Below are positions 22,280-30,323 of a stretch of 35,051 nt of DNA, in pieces. How positions within the stretch are numbered: the stretch's first letter is position 1; each line of letters starts with the position of its first letter. The notes beneath the pieces were generated by a model that saw only the letters and a list, made by a program, of their open reading frames with translations, searched no databases and was not told the DNA's origin. Source of the stretch: a virus. The translations under genes were made by a program, and so were the position numbers. Where the stretch lies: positions 1 to 35,051 of the IMG/VR virus record IMGVR_UViG_3300031857_000668. One strand, written 5' to 3'.

Positions 22280-24469
22280 GTGAAGCCCACAAAAGTAGAA
22301 ATTCTCCGAGAGTCAATTGCAAAAATCGTGCCATTGCTCTCCGGGCGCGGTGTCGAAGTCACGCAGGTCGGCACTAAGGCGTATGTCTCTTATCATCCCA
22401 AGACCTTCGTCCCGGAGCGGGTAAACATCCCGTACATTCCGGACAGCGCGCCGGATGCCCTGCTGATTGCCATTCAAGGCTTCGTTGACCACGAGTGCGC
22501 GCACATTCTGTTTAGCAATGCGAAGTTTGTGGAAACTGCCAGACACTCGAAGGTCGGCAGCATCTACGGTGTCATCGAGGACACCTTCATCGAACGAAAA
22601 ATGAAGGAGGCTTACGGTGGTTCTAAGGAGAATCTCGTCAAGACCTGGTCGTTCGTCGAGGAGCACATTCTCAAGGAGCCGCTTGCTAAGGCGGTTGCAT
22701 CAGGCAGCAAGGAAGCAATCTTCGGCACACTGCTTGTGCCGCTCATGCGCTTCTGGTCTGGCCAGAAAGAGTGCGAGGCGCTGATTAAGCCGCACCTGCC
22801 CACTATCGAGCCGATGATTAAGGCAATCGGCAGCGACTTGATTGACCGGATTCGTACCGTCAATTCTTCGGAGGACGGCTACAAGTTGGCGGTTGCGATG
22901 CACAATCGGCTTGAGGAACTCAAGCGTCGCGTCGAGGAAGAGGAAAGGAAAAAGAAGGAGAAGGAGGAGGGCGAAAAAGGCGAAGGCGAGGACACCTCTG
23001 GCGGCACGCCCGATGCAGATGGTGATTCTTCTGGCCCCACCCGTCGCAGCAAATCTAGCGCCTCTGACTCCGGCGACTCCGGCGACCCTGATGACGGCCC
23101 CGGCGATGAGTCTGAGGACGAGCACCCCGAGGACGGACATCCGGAGGAGGACTCTGCGGACGACTCTGACTACGAGGGCGATTCCGACGAGGATGACTCT
23201 GATGAGGAGGACTCTGAGGGTGGCTCCGACGAGGATGACTCTGATGAGGACTCTGATGAGGAGGACTCTGAGGGTGGCTCCGACGAGGATGACTCTGATG
23301 AGGACTCTGATGAGGAGGACTCTGAGGGTGGCTCCGACGAGGATGACTCTGATGAGGACTCTGATGAGGACTCTGATGAGGACTCTGATGAGGACTCTGA
23401 TGAGGACTCCGAAGATGAGAGCGAGGACGAGGACTCTGAGGAGGGCCTCGACGGCGAAATCGCAGAGTCAATTGCGGATGTCATCAAGGCTATCGAGGAG
23501 GCAAAAGACCTCGACGCGATGATGGATAAGAAAATCGCTGAGGAGATTGAGAAGGCCCACGCGGCGTCAAGATACACGCCGCTTACTAGGGACTTGGATG
23601 ATATCTCCGAGTTTCGTCCGCGCGCAGGTGTGCCGACCCAACTGAGGCAAATGGCTGCAATGGAGGCCGCCGTTAGCAGTCATATCGGGCCTTTGCAGCG
23701 TCATTTGGAGCGATTTGTTGCGGCCCGCTCTCACAGCCGCATGATTCCAGGCTATCGCTCGGGCCGAATCAACCCAAGCGCCTTGCATCGCATTGCGACT
23801 GGCGACGAACGCTTGTTCAGGCGCAAGTATGTAAGCCGGACTAAGGATGTTGCGGTCAGCCTTGTTGTTGACCTTTCTGGCTCGATGGGTGGGTCAAAGA
23901 TTGATTTGGCTATGAAGGCGGCATTCGCCCTGTCCTCATCGCTTGATAGGCTCAATATCACGCACGAAATTATCGGCTTCACCACTAATTGGCCGAGCAA
24001 GGTTGGCGTGTATCTTGCAGAAGTAGGCGCAGACCGCCATAAGTATTCGCGGTCTGAGGCTGTTTATATGCCTATCTTCAAGTCTTTCAACAGCCGCTTT
24101 AATTCAGAGCGACGCCGCGCAATGGCTTGTTATGACGAAATTGACCTGGCAAACAATATTGACGGCGAGTCGGTCGAATATGCCGCCAAACGGCTGTGGG
24201 CGCGTCGAGAGGCCCGCAAACTGATGATTGTCCTGTCTGACGGCCTGCCGTGCGCTGAGGGCGACCGTTCCGCACAAGACTGGCATCTTGCCGAGACGGT
24301 CAAGCGAATTCAGTCCGGCGGTATCGAAGTATTCGGCATTGGCATCATGTCCGCTGCCGTCAAGCGGTATTACCGCAATCATGTTGTCATCAACAAGTTG
24401 GATGAGCTTCCGACTACCGTTATGCGGCAGCTGGAAGTCATGCTGCTTGACTCGACAAAAGCCGCGTAG
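22280..24469 (+). CDS. CobT-like VWA-domain protein with HExxH motif and acidic repeat
   Basis: A 729-residue protein. The GTG start follows GGAGG. Residues 71-75 are HECAH, a zinc-metallopeptidase-type HExxH, followed by GVIEDTFIERKM, which may give a third ligand. Residues about 250-390 are extremely acidic (Asp, Glu, Ser). The C-terminal VWA domain has MIDAS DLSGS at 531-535 and MIVLSDGLP later. The same overall plan is seen in CobT, the partner of CobS in cobalt chelation, and in VWA partners of MoxR ATPases. The next gene is CobS-like, so the two likely form an ATP-driven remodelling pair. No other B12 gene is here, so a cobalamin role is doubtful. Confidence 0.8.
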   Translation: MKPTKVEILRESIAKIVPLLSGRGVEVTQVGTKAYVSYHPKTFVPERVNIPYIPDSAPDALLIAIQGFVDHECAHILFSNAKFVETARHSKVGSIYGVIEDTFIERKMKEAYGGSKENLVKTWSFVEEHILKEPLAKAVASGSKEAIFGTLLVPLMRFWSGQKECEALIKPHLPTIEPMIKAIGSDLIDRIRTVNSSEDGYKLAVAMHNRLEELKRRVEEEERKKKEKEEGEKGEGEDTSGGTPDADGDSSGPTRRSKSSASDSGDSGDPDDGPGDESEDEHPEDGHPEEDSADDSDYEGDSDEDDSDEEDSEGGSDEDDSDEDSDEEDSEGGSDEDDSDEDSDEEDSEGGSDEDDSDEDSDEDSDEDSDEDSDEDSEDESEDEDSEEGLDGEIAESIADVIKAIEEAKDLDAMMDKKIAEEIEKAHAASRYTPLTRDLDDISEFRPRAGVPTQLRQMAAMEAAVSSHIGPLQRHLERFVAARSHSRMIPGYRSGRINPSALHRIATGDERLFRRKYVSRTKDVAVSLVVDLSGSMGGSKIDLAMKAAFALSSSLDRLNITHEIIGFTTNWPSKVGVYLAEVGADRHKYSRSEAVYMPIFKSFNSRFNSERRRAMACYDEIDLANNIDGESVEYAAKRLWARREARKLMIVLSDGLPCAEGDRSAQDWHLAETVKRIQSGGIEVFGIGIMSAAVKRYYRNHVVINKLDELPTTVMRQLEVMLLDSTKAA
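23192..23413 (+). repeat. Nested tandem repeat coding for the acidic region
   Basis: A 42-base unit at 23192-23233 is followed by two identical 54-base units (23234-23287 and 23288-23341, DDSDEDSDEEDSEGGSDE) and then by several 12-base GACTCTGATGAG units (DSDE) to about 23405. Near-identity at the DNA level points to recent slippage or unequal recombination, so the copy number probably varies among relatives. Confidence 0.88.
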
Positions 24470-24478
24470 TCGAGCACT

Positions 24479-24567
24479 TGGTAATCAATCGGTAAGTCAT
24501 TGGTAAGTGTTGTTACCAATGGGGTTGTCTTGTATATTGCAATTGTCGCGTTATCGCACTTTGGAGG
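24479..24567 (+). promoter_or_regulatory. Hairpin, sigma70-like promoter and SD before the CobS-like gene
   Basis: TTGGTAA occurs near 24479 and TTGGTAAGT at 24500-24508; AAGTCAT is at 24494. A perfect 9-bp stem CATTGGTAA/TTACCAATG (24498-24506 and 24513-24521) has a GTGTTG loop. TTGTTA (24510-24515), 17 bases and TATATT (24533-24538) make a reasonable sigma70-type promoter whose -35 lies in the hairpin. The SD TTGGAGG (24561-24567) is five bases before the GTG. Confidence 0.5.
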
Positions 24568-24572
24568 TGTTT

Positions 24573-25730
24573 GTGTCCAGTAAGATTACTTGTCAAATCT
24601 GCGGCGAGCAGGTTCACGCCATTCAGAAGCACTTGGCGGAGGCGCATCCGGACGTGAGTCTGGATGCTTACAAGGCCCAGTTCCCAGACTCGCCAATTCT
24701 GAGCGAGGCCGCAAGGGCAAAAATTGCCGAGCGGCGTGCTCAGGAAACTAAGTCGGGCGTGACTGATGTGGCTGCCCCTCGTGGTGTCCCGACCAAGCCC
24801 GGTACATTTCTGCATGAGGTCTTTGACCTGGGTACGGTGCCCGCCGCTATGTCGGCATCCGGCAAGCCCATTCCCATTGCTGTCCTGGACGATATCGAAG
24901 GCGAGTACGGCACTGCGATGGTGCCGGCCGTCGACAAGTCCTATGTGTTCAACATCGACCTGCTCAAGACGGTGTTGATGTGCCTGGAAATGAATATGCC
25001 TTGCTATCTGTGGGGCCACATGGGTACGGGCAAGACCACTATCTACGAGCAGGCGTGTGCGCATACGCGCCGCCCGATGATTCGGGTCAACCACACCGTC
25101 AACACAGAGGAAGCGCACATTCTGGGCCAGCACGTCTTCCGTGACGGGCAGACGGTCTATCAGCCGGCCTGGCTGCCCATCGCGATGCGATATGGACTTG
25201 TCTATGTCGCCGACGAGTACGACTTCTGTGTGCCGCACGTCCTGTCGGTCTATCAGTCGGTTCTCGAGGGTAAGCCGCTCATTATCAAGGACGCCGACCC
25301 CGAATGGCGTGTCGTTCATCCGCACCCGAACTTCCGGTTCCTTGCGAACGGCAACACTAACGGCACCGGCGACTCGACGGGCATCTATCAAGGTACGCAG
25401 TTGCAGAACGCGGCGAACTACGAACGCTTCGCCGTCGTGCAGCGTGTGGAGTTCATGGACGCAAGCATCGAGAAGCGCATCCTCATCAGCCGCTGCGGTC
25501 TCGGCAGCAAGGATGCGGACCACTTCATCAAGTTTGCCAGCCTGATTCGTCAGGAGGTCGACAAGAGTTCCATCAGCACGCCGATTACTCCCCGGTCGCT
25601 CATCAATGCCGCCCGACTCGGCATCGTCAAGGGTGACTTCAAGGTGGGCCTGTCGCTTGCTTACATCAATCGCCTGCCGCCCGTCGAGCAGGAGGTTGCG
25701 CGTCAGTTGGTGCAGAGGATTTTCACCTGA
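24573..25730 (+). CDS. CobS/MoxR-like AAA+ ATPase with N-terminal zinc finger
   Basis: A 385-residue protein starting at GTG 24573, five bases after SD TTGGAGG. The first ~45 residues match a C2H2-type finger found in many phage proteins, CQICGEQVHAIQKHLAEAH followed by SLDAYKAQFP. The AAA+ core has Walker A GHMGTGKT (from residue 148, Lys154) and Walker B VADEYD (Asp214, Glu215), then sensor-type FLANGNTNGTGD and the EKRILISRCG region seen in CobS. In CobS-CobT the ATPase drives metal insertion. In phages the target is unknown. The stop overlaps the next start (TGATG). Confidence 0.82.
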   Translation: MSSKITCQICGEQVHAIQKHLAEAHPDVSLDAYKAQFPDSPILSEAARAKIAERRAQETKSGVTDVAAPRGVPTKPGTFLHEVFDLGTVPAAMSASGKPIPIAVLDDIEGEYGTAMVPAVDKSYVFNIDLLKTVLMCLEMNMPCYLWGHMGTGKTTIYEQACAHTRRPMIRVNHTVNTEEAHILGQHVFRDGQTVYQPAWLPIAMRYGLVYVADEYDFCVPHVLSVYQSVLEGKPLIIKDADPEWRVVHPHPNFRFLANGNTNGTGDSTGIYQGTQLQNAANYERFAVVQRVEFMDASIEKRILISRCGLGSKDADHFIKFASLIRQEVDKSSISTPITPRSLINAARLGIVKGDFKVGLSLAYINRLPPVEQEVARQLVQRIFT

Positions 25731-26374
25731 TGACAGCGCCAGCGCAGCCTCCAAAATGGGAGGACTACGAGCGGTTTGTGGCACAGCTGTCCTGGAAATC
25801 TCACCGGAGATCCAGGATGGCTGGACGCCCAATGGAATTTGACGACATTTTCCAGGAGGCGGCTACAGCCTATGTTCGCGCGCTGAGGACATTCAAGCCG
25901 GAACTCGGGTTCCGATTCATCACTTATCTTGGCGCCGCCGTTAATTCGTCCCTTGCCAACTACAAGAAAAAGATGGACCGCCAGCTGGTTGGTAGGACGG
26001 TCAGTCTGGACTCGATGTTGGAAGAGGACGGGGATGCCCACGAGGTGTTTCCTGGGTACGACCCGTCGCCACTCGATGAGTTGATGGCGACGGACTCCCT
26101 TGAAAACTCCTTGAGAGAACTGGGTCCGCTCGGCGAACAGATGATTGAGTGGATGATTAGCCCGCCTCCGGAAATTGAGGCGGAACTCAACGCGCTTCGT
26201 TGGAAATTTGCCGAAATGAATCGGCGTGGAATTCGACGCAATGCCGTCAATCTTGAAATGGACATTCGCTTTCTGTTTGGCGAACTCCTGCCCAAGTTGA
26301 TTCCGGAGAATCAGGCGGCAATCAAGAGGCTTAGGGCCAAAGTACAGGGGGTGGTAGGTGCATGGAACATCTAG
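25730..26374 (+). CDS. Sigma-70 region-2-like transcription factor
   Basis: A 214-residue protein. Residues about 34-80 fit sigma region 2: MEFDDIFQEAATAYVRALRTFKPELGFRFITYLGAAV matches the DLIQEG...A-x-x-x-FDP-x-x-G-x-x-F-x-TYA pattern, the core-binding and -10-recognition part. The C-terminal half has helices, but I see no clear region-4 helix-turn-helix. That is like small phage sigma factors such as T4 gp55, which work with co-factors. It may direct host RNA polymerase to phage promoters, possibly the recurring elements listed here. Start overlaps the previous stop, and the end overlaps the next gene by 13 bases. Confidence 0.7.
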   Translation: MTAPAQPPKWEDYERFVAQLSWKSHRRSRMAGRPMEFDDIFQEAATAYVRALRTFKPELGFRFITYLGAAVNSSLANYKKKMDRQLVGRTVSLDSMLEEDGDAHEVFPGYDPSPLDELMATDSLENSLRELGPLGEQMIEWMISPPPEIEAELNALRWKFAEMNRRGIRRNAVNLEMDIRFLFGELLPKLIPENQAAIKRLRAKVQGVVGAWNI

Positions 26375-26988
26375 AAAGACCAGGCTGCTTCGGGTTTGTG
26401 GTCTGTTACGAGCCAGGCTCGGAGTTCTGCTCCGGGTGTAATCACGAGGAAGCCTGTGCGGCGGTTGTTTCTGAGCGTCGCACAGCGTTGGAAAAGTTAC
26501 TCGCGGGTAGGGTAGCGGGGGGTGCGCGAGGCCCGCTGAAACGGGCTGCAATGCGCCCTAGCGTAGCGCCTGCTACACCCGCTCCCGTTGTGCATATCGC
26601 AGTAGTGGAGACAGTCGTGGAAATCAAGGCAGAAGTACCCAAGCGTGGTGGTTCGGAACCCAAGCGGTATGCCGCAGGGGAAATGAGCAAGAAGGCTCGC
26701 CAGCTGGACGAGTCGCTCAAGCGGCTCAACATCAATGCGGTCGAAAGTCTGAAGGCGGGTAGGAACCCGATGGAGGGCTTCGACAGGCTTAGTTTCTTCA
26801 AGATTGCCTGCGACCTGCTCCTGGCTGACGGCGCCCTCGACCGCGCCAAACTGCACAAGGCGTATACCGACAATCTTGGGTGGGACTCCAAAACGGCAGC
26901 GTCCCATCTGTCCATCATCGCATCTTACATGGTCGCGACAGGAATCCTTGCTGTGGACGGCAAAATGCTCATCCGAGTTGCCCGATGA
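26362..26988 (+). CDS. Cysteine-cluster protein of unknown function
   Basis: A 208-residue protein. The N-terminus GCFGFVVCYEPGSEFCSGC and a further Cys32 give a cluster (Cys9, 15, 23, 26, 32). This resembles the CFG...P..C-x2-C-x5-C motif of many phage and bacterial proteins and is a likely metal or iron-sulphur site. A Pro/Ala/Arg-rich linker (about 50-85) follows. The C-terminal ~100 residues are helical (DRLSFFKIACDLLLADGALD, then ASHLSIIASYMVATGIL) and may be a winged-helix-like domain. It sits between the sigma-like and polymerase genes and overlaps both (ATGA with the latter). Confidence 0.72.
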   Translation: MEHLERPGCFGFVVCYEPGSEFCSGCNHEEACAAVVSERRTALEKLLAGRVAGGARGPLKRAAMRPSVAPATPAPVVHIAVVETVVEIKAEVPKRGGSEPKRYAAGEMSKKARQLDESLKRLNINAVESLKAGRNPMEGFDRLSFFKIACDLLLADGALDRAKLHKAYTDNLGWDSKTAASHLSIIASYMVATGILAVDGKMLIRVAR

Positions 26989-29900
26989 TTTGGCTGAATG
27001 CCCGGACGCACTTCTCGCTCGGCGAGAGTGTGGTCAAGATTGACGAGTTGGTTGACGCCGCAAAGGAGCAGGGCGTTCATGCCATCGGACTTATGGACAC
27101 GATGAATGTGTCCGGCATGATTGACTTCTGCAAGCGGTGCAAGGAGGGCGGCATCAAGCCCATCGTCGGCGTGCGACTGCGGGTTGTGGATGACCCGCTC
27201 TATCGGAAGCCCGGCCTTGGTGAACCCAAGAAGGACAACTACGAATACTATCCGAATGTCTACATCCGGAATCACGACGGTTGGCTCTCGGTTCTGAGGC
27301 TGCTGTCCAAGGGGCTGAGTGAGGACTACTTCTACTACAAGCCGCGCATCGGGCTGGATGACTTGCTCGAGGAATTGGAACGCGGCGGGCTTATCGTCAC
27401 CTCTGGCGACTTCAACGGCGTGTTCACGCATCCTAGTGCGGCTAAGATTTGGACCGCCATTGAGGCGGCAGCGGGAGAACTGGCCTGCGGCGAGGTCGTG
27501 CCGCTCAATACTCCGTTTTGGGATAGGTACAATTTCGAGGTCATCAAGCACACGAAATCCCACGCCGTCACCTGGCCCATCCTCTACCTGACCGGGGAGG
27601 AAGCGGAAGCGCGCGATGTGGCGTCCGCAATCATCTCCAATCACAAGATTACCGACCGGTTCCGGCATATCCCGCATACCCGGTGCCATCACCCTGTTGA
27701 TGCCAGTCAACTCCGCTCCCACAAGGAAGGCACTTACGGGCGGCTCGGCATCAAGCCTACGGTCGAGTACGAAATCGAGCCGCGCATCGAGTTCTCCTGG
27801 TCAAAATTGCCGGTCACGCTGCCTAGCATTGCTACTGGCGAGACCGAGTTCGATATGCTTGTGCGCCTGTGTAAGAAGGGCTGGAAGGAGCGTTTCAGCC
27901 AGGAGATTCTCGGACACAAGCCAGGCCCAGAGGAGTTGCCCAAGTATCAGGAGCGCCTCAAGTACGAACTTGGCGTCATCCGCAAGATGGGCTTTGAGCG
28001 GTACTTCCTGGTCGTCGCAGATGTGGTGAACTGGGCCAAGTGGAACGGGATTCTTGTAGGCCCCGGTCGAGGCTCTGTTGGCGGCAGTCTTGTCGCCTAC
28101 CTGACGCGAATCACGGATGTCGACCCCATCCGCTTCAACCTACTTTTCGAGCGTTTCATCAACCCGGAACGCCTCGACTTGCCCGACGCGGACCTCGACT
28201 TTCAGTCCTCCCGCCGCGAAGAGGTTATTCAGTACCTAGTCGACAAGTACGGTCGGGACATGGTGGCCGGCATTTCTAACTTCTCGACGATGGCATCCGC
28301 ATCAGCCCTGCGCGATGTAGGTCGCGTCTACAACATCGACCTGCGTGAAATGGAAATCACGAAGTTGGTGCCGAAGGAGCACGGCAAGCCCTACGAGTTG
28401 GAGCGTGCTGCTGACGAAGTGCCGCAAATCGACAACTTCCGGGTCAAGCATCCGGCTATCTGGAAGACAGCGACCCGTCTGGAGGGCGTCATGCGGTCGT
28501 TTGGCCGTCACGCTGCTGGCGTTGTCGTCGCTGGCGAGCCGCTTTCAAATCGTGCCGTAGTCGAGACGCATCGCGGCGAACCCGTGGTCAATTGGGACAA
28601 GGTGTTCGTGGAAGACCTGGGGCTGGTGAAGATGGACGTTCTCGGTCTGTCTACGCTGGATGTCATCGGGTTGGCGCTCAAATACATCGAGCAGCGGCAT
28701 CGCATCACCATTGATATGACCACGCTGCCGCTTGATGACCCCAAGACCCTGGACTCTTTCGCAGAGGGCCAGACGGTCGGCGTGTTCCAGTTTGAATCAT
28801 CGGGAATGCGGACGCTGCTCAAGGACTTGGGCATGGGTGGCAAGTTGACTTTCGAGGACTTGGCCGCCGCTACCTCGCTGTATCGCCCCGGCCCGAAGGA
28901 CTCTGGTCTGCTGGACGACTATGTGGCTATTCGTCAGGGCCTGAAGAGGCCCTACTACGAGCATCCCAACATGATTCCTGCGCTGGAAACAACGGGCGGG
29001 GTCATGGTGTACCAGGAGCAGGTCATGCAGATTACCCGCGACCTGTGCGGATTCTCTGCCGCAGAAGCCGACGCTGCTCGAAAGGCGATGGGCAAGAAGG
29101 ACAAAGACAAGATGGAGGCCCTGCGCGCCAAGTTTGTGGCGGGCGCGCAAAGTCACTCGGGTATGGAGTCGAGGCCCGCTAATGGCTTGTTCGACAAGAT
29201 TATGAATTTCGCCGCGTACGCCTTCAATCGAAGCCACGCTGTCGAGTATTCCGTAATCTCGTACTGGACGATGTGGCTCAAGGTCAATTACCCGGCAGAG
29301 TTCTACGCGGCGGGCCTGACGATTCTCGGCGACGACAAGCTGGAGGGCCTGGTGCGTGACGCCAGGAAGCGAGAAATCGAGGTGATGCCGCCCCGCATCA
29401 ACACCTCCACTCAGCGGTTTGAGATTATCGACGGACTGAAGGAGCGTTCCGAGAAGTTGCCCAATGCAGTCTTGATTGCGCCATTTAGCCGCGTCAAGGG
29501 AATCTCCGAAAACACGGCCCAGTCTATTCTCGAGGCGCGCAACAAGGCAGGTAAGTTCCTCAGTCGGAAGCATCTTGAAGGCATCGTCAACAGGACGAAG
29601 GTCAATGTTCGTCATCGCGACGCGCTGGACAAGGTCGGTGCTTTTCATGGCATCGAACCGGGAAGTCTGCCGCCCCTGCATCCCGACCGTCGCAAAGACC
29701 AGATGGCCCTCATGCCCGGTCTGATTATCGACATGGTCAAGGCAGACCGGGCAATCGTCACCGGAGAGGCAATCAAGAACATCCTGATTTCCGAAGTTGT
29801 CAGGCCCGTTCAGTCCTGTAAGGGCTGTAGCCTCAGCGGTGGCGTACACCCGATGCCTAGACTCGGTGCTAAAGCCAAGTTCATGGTGGTCACCGACTGC

Positions 29901-30323
29901 CCGAACTACTCGGAGGAGGCTGAGAACAAGATGTTCTCAGGCAAAGCCTCCGGGTTCTTGAGGGAGGCGCTGAACTCGGCAGAACTGAAGGCAGCAGACG
30001 CTTACTTCACCTCGCTGGTCAAATCGCCCAAGTCCGGCAAGTTGCTCTCCAATGAGCAAATCAACGGCTGCGCCGGCTACTTGATGAAGGAAATTGAGAT
30101 TCTCAAGCCGCCCGTAATCTTGGCGCTTGGTAGTTCGACTGTGAATTATCTGGTGCCGGGGCTAAAGGGTGGTGTGCAGGAGCATACCGGCAGGGTTCAC
30201 TACAACCCCAAACTGGATGCCAATATCGTCATTGGATTCAACCCCGCGATGATTGCCTTCGATTCATCCAAGCAGACGGCGCTGAACGAGATTTTGGCGA
30301 CCGTCGCTGAATTGGTAAGTTGA
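26985..30323 (+). CDS. dnaE: DNA polymerase III alpha subunit (DnaE) fused to a family-4-like uracil-DNA glycosylase domain
   Basis: A 1112-residue replicative polymerase. The ATG overlaps the previous stop (ATGA). The N-terminal PHP domain (about 1-270) has lost metal ligands: LNARTHFSLGES stands where active PHP domains have H-x-H, and LMDTMN where they have D-H. The catalytic core is intact: GPGRGSVGGSLVAYL, PDADLDF with Asp401 and Asp403 (same numbers as E. coli), and VKMDVLGL (Asp551). A helix-hairpin-helix (VKGISENTAQSILEARN) and a clamp-binding-like QMALM (906-910; E. coli has its motif near 920) follow. From about residue 940 the usual OB and tau-binding domains are missing. Instead there is a glycosylase-like domain: CKGCSLS (Cys945, Cys948), FMVVTDCPN where family 4 has GEAPG, NGCAGYLMKEIEILKPPVILALG, and GFNPAM where it has HPA. 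Confidence 0.85.
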   Translation: MIWLNARTHFSLGESVVKIDELVDAAKEQGVHAIGLMDTMNVSGMIDFCKRCKEGGIKPIVGVRLRVVDDPLYRKPGLGEPKKDNYEYYPNVYIRNHDGWLSVLRLLSKGLSEDYFYYKPRIGLDDLLEELERGGLIVTSGDFNGVFTHPSAAKIWTAIEAAAGELACGEVVPLNTPFWDRYNFEVIKHTKSHAVTWPILYLTGEEAEARDVASAIISNHKITDRFRHIPHTRCHHPVDASQLRSHKEGTYGRLGIKPTVEYEIEPRIEFSWSKLPVTLPSIATGETEFDMLVRLCKKGWKERFSQEILGHKPGPEELPKYQERLKYELGVIRKMGFERYFLVVADVVNWAKWNGILVGPGRGSVGGSLVAYLTRITDVDPIRFNLLFERFINPERLDLPDADLDFQSSRREEVIQYLVDKYGRDMVAGISNFSTMASASALRDVGRVYNIDLREMEITKLVPKEHGKPYELERAADEVPQIDNFRVKHPAIWKTATRLEGVMRSFGRHAAGVVVAGEPLSNRAVVETHRGEPVVNWDKVFVEDLGLVKMDVLGLSTLDVIGLALKYIEQRHRITIDMTTLPLDDPKTLDSFAEGQTVGVFQFESSGMRTLLKDLGMGGKLTFEDLAAATSLYRPGPKDSGLLDDYVAIRQGLKRPYYEHPNMIPALETTGGVMVYQEQVMQITRDLCGFSAAEADAARKAMGKKDKDKMEALRAKFVAGAQSHSGMESRPANGLFDKIMNFAAYAFNRSHAVEYSVISYWTMWLKVNYPAEFYAAGLTILGDDKLEGLVRDARKREIEVMPPRINTSTQRFEIIDGLKERSEKLPNAVLIAPFSRVKGISENTAQSILEARNKAGKFLSRKHLEGIVNRTKVNVRHRDALDKVGAFHGIEPGSLPPLHPDRRKDQMALMPGLIIDMVKADRAIVTGEAIKNILISEVVRPVQSCKGCSLSGGVHPMPRLGAKAKFMVVTDCPNYSEEAENKMFSGKASGFLREALNSAELKAADAYFTSLVKSPKSGKLLSNEQINGCAGYLMKEIEILKPPVILALGSSTVNYLVPGLKGGVQEHTGRVHYNPKLDANIVIGFNPAMIAFDSSKQTALNEILATVAELVS

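Follow-up and report, generated by a model that had tools for sequence, protein, structure and literature searches.

Why should the replicative DNA polymerase of a phage end in a uracil-DNA glycosylase (UDG)? The question is raised by one gene in a viral DNA stretch of 35,051 nt, IMG/VR record IMGVR_UViG_3300031857_000668; 'the window' below means this whole stretch. The gene encodes a polymerase of the DnaE type. An earlier note had proposed that a family-4-like UDG domain takes the place of its C-terminal OB and tau-binding domains, that the glycosylase motifs are altered and that the domain may recognize uracil without cutting. We found that the DnaE-UDG fusion is real. The reading that we favour, and to which we would give a probability of about one half, is that this phage DnaE carries in the OB/tau position a UDG-derived, repurposed, non-excising DNA-binding module; it is drawn from sequence comparison and structural models. 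The two features at issue are the following.

26985..30323, + strand: dnaE-UDG fusion gene, an open reading frame (ORF) of 1112 residues with its stop codon at 30321-30323
29769..30320, + strand: UDG-fold domain in place of the OB and tau-binding domains (residues 929-1112)

Pfam UDG matches residues 962-1101 (1.5e-12; 48.2 bits with a cut-off of 24.3), phmmer relates the C-terminus to family-4 UDG structures, and a profile built from eight sequences, the window's included, matches a family-4 UDG structure at 1.1e-18. In the full-length AlphaFold model (predicted local distance difference test, pLDDT, 89.0; predicted template modelling score 0.80) residues 1-919 align with the Pol III alpha structure 4iqj, presumably the Thermus protein (Z 43.0, 872 residues, 5.0 Å), residues 928-1112 with 1vk2 (Z 24.8) and residues 932-1112 with 4zbx (Z 24.9). 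The domain modelled alone (pLDDT 91.7) aligns with 4zbx at Z 24.4, with 2.2 Å over 181 residues. Sequence matches to Pol III alpha stop at residues 888-910 and the last 184 residues are UDG; in the structure comparison the Pol III rows 5fku and 3e0d reach residues 1074 and 1082 with only a few extra aligned residues. No OB or tau-binding domain was detected in this polypeptide by Pfam or by sequence and full-length model fold comparison, since the protein ends with the UDG domain.

The ORF, its coordinates and the motifs quoted in the earlier note were all confirmed in the sequence. The switch to a UDG, which the note had placed at residue ~940, was found as well, with a boundary nearer 929. 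The structure prediction and fold search that it had proposed returned a UDG fold and not an unrelated one; a diverged OB or tau domain is ruled out by the fold comparisons of the domain and of the whole model, and chance motif matches by the Pfam and profile matches. Against the family-4 model TIGR00758 the window protein scores 55.5 bits, below the cut-off of 125.3, and L048, a member of a second lineage with intact motifs (see below), is likewise under it at 95.7 bits. The score against TIGR03914 (UdgX) is 37.4 bits, below the cut-off of 189.95. The loop following the Cys motif of UdgX proteins holds their covalent His; by eye, the window has none between K1013 and C1029.

Family-4 UDGs (Thermotoga TM0511, Sulfolobus 4zbx, Thermus 1ui0) have the same fold (Z 23-24), but the catalytic Glu, the His, the Asn and one Cys of these enzymes are replaced in the window domain. 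We compared 49 representatives (<85% identity) of 90 C-termini, taken from the window, 77 viral loci and 12 phages, with 20 references, namely 13 standalone phage UDGs and seven UDGs of the second lineage. Two loci with the window's own sequence (L127, L128) and one cut off at its end (L193) were not among the 90. The standalone set originally numbered 15; L059, a near copy of L053, was dropped, as was L108, which keeps Glu, Asn and His and has none of the four Cys. The standalone references were found with patterns including EAPGADED and KCRPKDNK, so that Glu or Cys1014 was partly preselected and Asn and His were not. The loci of the window lineage were found through one pattern over residues 1036-1045; conservation of E1036, P1042 and P1043 is thus partly by design, while the pocket positions lie outside the pattern. 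The replaced positions are listed here.

29895..29897, + strand: Asp971, replacing the catalytic Glu of GEAPG (D in 49/49; E in 20/20 references)
30012..30014, + strand: Ser1010, replacing the uracil-reading Asn (N in 0/49; 20/20 references)
30024..30032, + strand: Ser1014, at the place of a lost iron-sulphur Cys, and Lys1016 (C1014 in 0/49 and 20/20 references; K1016 in 49/49, P in 20/20 references)
30240..30245, + strand: Asn1086-Pro1087, replacing the His-Pro of HPS (N in 41/49; H in 20/20 references)

We take 971 and 1086 to be the two classic catalytic positions, 1010 the uracil-reading and 984 the stacking position. Among the representatives position 1010 is Ser in 19, Ala in 15, Thr in 12 and Gly in 3, and position 1086 is Asn in 41, Ser in 6, His in 1 and Ala in 1. 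The stacking Phe984 survives in 4/49, among them the window, as against 18/20 references. Four reference invariants, at 971, 978, 1016 and 1086, have been swapped for other near-invariant residues; outside the classic motifs K1061, D1078, G1084 and R922 are near-invariant in the window lineage. The alignments of the family-4 crystal structures (TM0511, 4zbx, 1ui0), whose retrieval involved no motif preselection, have the Glu, the Asn and the Cys; the His is seen in 4zbx, whose alignment is the only one of these to extend that far. At the HPS position His is present in 80/80 cellular family-4 genes. These 80 loci were found via patterns containing Glu, or Asn with Cys1014, and for that reason only His serves as a free control. 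The note's remark that the glycosylase motifs are altered thus extends from the window to its relatives: as judged from the alignment, the altered motifs are an alternative set common to the window lineage, and the window domain probably no longer removes uracil.

Three of the four family-4 Cys remain in the window, and a His is a candidate for the place of the fourth.

29817..29828, + strand: CxxC (C945, C948), the first two family-4 cluster ligands, kept
29847..29849, + strand: His955, a candidate to stand in for the lost ligand Cys1014
30069..30071, + strand: Cys1029, cluster ligand kept (39/49)

All three of C945, C948 and C1029 are present in 39/49 representatives. His955 occurs in 39/39 sequences with all three Cys and in 2/10 of the remainder; in the 80 cellular family-4 genes position 955 is Q in 37, N in 17 and H in 4. 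His955 may, on this pattern, replace Cys1014 as the fourth ligand. Co-loss of His955 and Cys was seen in two independent pairs on supported branches (three on all branches; median sign-test p 0.5); with only two to three independent losses the sign test is unable to reach significance, so the co-loss is suggestive only. The ten representatives without the full set of three Cys still keep the domain.

The UDG domain is under purifying selection. The ratio of non-synonymous to synonymous substitution rates (dN/dS) between the window and L003 is lowest in palm/thumb (0.100), 0.141 in both the UDG domain and the fingers, and highest in PHP (0.234); against L131 it is 0.220 for the UDG domain and 0.175 for the fingers, and against L130 it is 0.063 for the UDG domain, all of these being rough values because the synonymous rate of the UDG domain exceeds 1 in each of the three comparisons. 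The dN/dS of the domain speaks against simple decay, which we rejected, and the low ratios together with the swapped near-invariant residues argue that a function has been kept.

The earlier note knew of no described case of this arrangement, and the search for other proteins with both domains that it had proposed returned many relatives in phages, plasmids and viral contigs as well as the second lineage; a single odd contig is thereby ruled out. In 36 of 50,697 phage records there is a locus spanning 80% or more of the query protein. Among the 60 phage rows listed, 30 cover 99-100% of the query and the other 30 end at residues 887-937; the end-to-end matches include SSU5, Cyrano, nickie, hairong, RHEph10, RHph and ANB28, some of them as GenBank/RefSeq pairs. 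Among 72,556 plasmid records, such a locus, again spanning 80% or more of the DnaE query and counted on coverage alone, is present in 909. The C-terminal domain is matched by 999 plasmid records (Klebsiella 313, Escherichia 218, Acinetobacter 154), in 877 of them over at least 80% of the domain, some standalone UDG or UdgX genes being included. A genome scan queried with the window protein gave no relative. PHROG phrog_405 covers residues 4-1111.

In IMG/VR 170 relatives of the C-terminal domain were confirmed, and the best 80 of the 170 were read: 44, including two identical to the window, had one ORF running through the polymerase, 20 were split and 16 were cut by a contig end. Pfam UDG was matched once in 10 of 11 records; the eleventh, G004 (215,656 bases), had two matches, both in ORFs of 1149 residues. 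A dUTPase (PF00692) was found in 4/11 records, including a 58-kb contig with an identical DnaE; if that contig is the same phage, the window's phage encodes a dUTPase. By these dUTPase genes some of the phages limit uracil.

The SSU5-, nickie- and RHph-type DnaE proteins of phages and plasmids (phrog_405) have the same full-length architecture and C-terminal domain as the window protein, at 37-48% identity to it; the SSU5, ANB28 and Rhizobium versions differ in being without the cluster Cys. The protein gp048 of Rhizobium phage RHEph10 (AGC36092.1) is the same fusion, likewise without the cluster Cys in its alignment row, and its GenBank entry has the note 'uracil-DNA glycosylase-like', with no mechanism stated.

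In a second lineage (L008, L047-L052) phage DnaE also carries a C-terminal UDG; unlike in the window, the motifs are intact, with Glu, Asn, His and the four Cys present in 7/7 aligned proteins. L295 resembles this lineage by the length of its ORF (1512 residues, unusually long) and by motifs only. Ahead of the UDG, six of the seven proteins have an extra stretch, absent in L052; for the five of these stretches that were aligned a PDB search gave no convincing match (best E 0.16), and comparison with the C-termini of five other phage DnaE proteins by HHalign gave E 0.087 and a probability of 0.7%, so that no OB fold was recognised in them. L047 and L051 carry intein domains. In the trees the window lineage forms one group (Shimodaira-Hasegawa-like approximate likelihood ratio test, 100). 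In the DnaE tree, which is unrooted, L052 stands beside the window lineage (support 81) and the other five second-lineage proteins beside DnaE without UDG (81). A scan of cellular sequences with a second-lineage UDG gave no ORF >452 residues among the best 80 of 509 relatives, hence no DnaE fusion there. With its motifs intact, the second lineage offers the stronger case for a replicase that senses or removes uracil, which is plausible there on the residues present.

According to the reading that we favour, the usual site of the OB and tau-binding domains of DnaE is taken by a domain of family-4 UDG descent, which, its pocket remodelled, would stand in for the absent OB domain. It would serve as a C-terminal DNA grip or template-guiding module beside the helix-hairpin-helix and clamp-binding region, and would not excise uracil; in most members its metal site would be bound by C945, C948, H955 and C1029. 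We consider it the best explanation because of the fold, the motif switch, the dN/dS values, the retention of the domain despite loss of Cys and the mostly sole Pfam UDG match in a record. Several observations weigh against it. Asp and Asn at catalytic positions, as well as Asn-Pro motifs, occur in other UDG families, and by analogy activity on some base is possible. The near-fixed D971, N1086 and K1016 suggest that the pocket is used for something specific beyond scaffolding. A family-A polymerase fusion, L096, has the same Asn-to-Ser and His-to-Asn changes, as if this pocket had been reached repeatedly, which sits poorly with a dead one. There is also the roughness of the dN/dS values, and 27 more distant rows are on average less identical to the window in the UDG domain (0.472) than in the fingers (0.591) and palm (0.617).

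Part of this evidence would fit an active glycosylase of altered specificity, whose Asp/Asn site would clear a different base in front of the polymerase: the catalytic positions have switched to near-fixed residues without drift, the domain is under purifying selection, Asp/Asn centres have the precedents just named, and L096, one of eight aligned family-A UDGs, independently has Ser for Asn and Asn for His with Glu kept. With position 1086 being Ser or Ala in 7/49 and His in one, an iron-sulphur ligand lost in 49/49 and a TIGR00758 score far under the cut-off, we regard such an enzyme as unlikely. A wider scheme, in which a family-4 UDG acquired by phage DnaE would be active in the lineage of L008, L047-L052 and L295, and in the window lineage would have been rebuilt so as to read or excise something else than uracil during replication, with a distinct Asp/Asn pocket and a Cys3-His metal site, is tentative, though we rank it first among the alternatives. 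Next to it, and still doubtful, comes a protein-docking module that would recruit a phage or host replisome partner in replacement of the tau-binding function. The domain holds the C-terminal place of the tau-binding domain and has the near-invariant residues outside the classic motifs; yet no partner was identified, and the pocket positions themselves are near-fixed. The note's own proposal, of a domain that would bind uracil in the template, leave it uncut and stall or reject, draws on the fusion of a UDG fold to a replicase, on Phe984 in the window and on the dUTPase genes. With the uracil-reading Asn absent in 49/49 and the stacking Phe found in so few, uracil sensing is weakened for the window lineage, and we place it below the altered-specificity glycosylase. 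Were the domain a passive relic, decaying from an active ancestral UDG, this would account for the cluster Cys and several motif residues lost in SSU5, ANB28 and the Rhizobium phages and for the SSU5 domain falling under the Pfam cut-off (14.9 bits), but the domain's dN/dS of 0.06-0.22 in three comparisons and the fact that positions 971, 1016 and 1086 have gained new invariant residues and have not drifted make such a relic highly improbable.

A UDG as a polymerase accessory is not without parallel. The D4 UDG of poxviruses (vaccinia) is part of the D4-A20 processivity factor; it differs from the window domain in belonging to family 1, in being a separate subunit and in being still active. 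Closer are the family-A phage polymerases (PMBT14, Serbin, LysYB1 and the phiLo polymerase, PDB 9qhs), in which a UDG fold is fused to a polymerase as in the window; 9qhs matches the model of the window domain at Z 15.3. They differ in the polymerase family, the window core being DnaE, and in the N-terminal position of the UDG, and of the eight aligned all but L096 have Glu, Asn and His intact. This kind of fusion is also reflected in the database name 'Phage SPO1 DNA polymerase-related protein' and in matches whose annotation is DNA polymerase I or family A. Out of 80 viral ORFs with a UDG match (L062-L126 among them), 36 match family-A polymerase (E up to 1e-4) and six DnaE. Taken together, the fused sequences suggest that UDG has been paired repeatedly with phage polymerases.

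UDG on family-A phage polymerases is thus already known; for the DnaE version there is the one GenBank note, and we found no description of a DnaE-UDG fusion in the open-licence literature. None is given in the passages found in PMC7824862, PMC2147016, PMC8150378 and PMC7581432, and the words uracil, UDG and glycosylase are absent from the main text of PMC11348598, PMC12926913 and PMC12386605. The fusion is of interest as a case, present on phages and plasmids alike, of a repair-enzyme fold recruited into a bacterial-type (family C) replicase, where it stands in place of the OB and tau-binding domains, and it bears on the working of a Pol III alpha that lacks an OB domain. With one lineage intact and the other remodelled, the question whether base-excision or base-reading activity can reside on a replicase becomes accessible to experiment. 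It matters for annotation too, as the C-terminal half of a split DnaE has been named as a UDG family protein.

The polymerase part of the protein has the domain order of DnaE (PHP, palm, fingers, helix-hairpin-helix) by Pfam and by structure comparison.

26985..27797, + strand: PHP domain, the fastest-evolving part (residues about 1-271; Pfam PHP 6-165)
27855..28646, + strand: palm/thumb catalytic region with D401, D403 and D551 (residues 291-554; Pfam DNA_pol3_alpha)
28653..29156, + strand: fingers (residues 557-724; Pfam finger)
29376..29657, + strand: helix-hairpin-helix region (residues 798-891; Pfam HHH_6)
29700..29714, + strand: clamp-binding-like QMALM (residues 906-910)

The Pfam E-values are 1.9e-83 for DNA_pol3_alpha, 1.1e-51 for finger, 2.2e-24 for PHP and 5.3e-13 for HHH_6. 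TIGR00594 is matched with 706.7 bits (cut-off 434.35), and in phmmer residues 4-892 match E. coli Pol III alpha at 2.3e-136. The three catalytic Asp, which the note had reported as kept, are invariant across 31 aligned sequences, the window included. The other motifs lie at residues 945-948 (CKGC), 970-974 (TDCPN), 1013-1014 (KS), 1027-1049 (NGCAGYLMKEIEILKPPVILALG) and 1085-1089 (FNPAM). QMALM follows the helix-hairpin-helix region and presumably fits the pattern of the internal clamp-binding motif of DnaE; Q is found in 34/49 representatives (R in 14/49) and L909 in 46/49, and the motif coincides partly with helix 900-909 of the predicted structure. As a clamp-binding site it is plausible. 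The first metal-binding motif of PHP is usually HxHxxxS; by eye, the window has NARTHFS in its place. With this motif apparently lost, a PHP exonuclease is unlikely. PHP is the fastest-evolving region, with dN/dS of 0.23 and 0.53.

In the 20 split loci among the 80 relatives, the DnaE gene is divided at residues about 721-736, in the fingers, with the N-terminal part upstream in 20/20; examples are L208:1486-5729 and L007/L130. An HNH/NUMOD4 match lies between the two halves in 17 of the 20, many of which are near copies of one Acinetobacter version. Rfam gave nothing at the gathering score for the split loci L208 and L130. In an Acinetobacter plasmid the second half is labelled 'uracil-DNA glycosylase family protein'.

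In the window itself, the start codon of the fusion gene (ATG at 26985) shares ATGA with the stop of the preceding ORF (26362-26988), which encodes an uncharacterised phrog_3616 protein. Further upstream lie a sigma-like gene (25730-26374), a gene for a MoxR/CobS-like ATPase (24507-25730) and, adjoining the latter, a gene at 22280-24469 for a CobT-like VWA protein that contains a long, acidic tract of Asp/Glu/Ser repeats. CobS/CobT-like genes adjoin dnaE also in the SSU5, nickie and RHph phages, where, in further likeness to the window, ligase, helicase or primase genes lie nearby.

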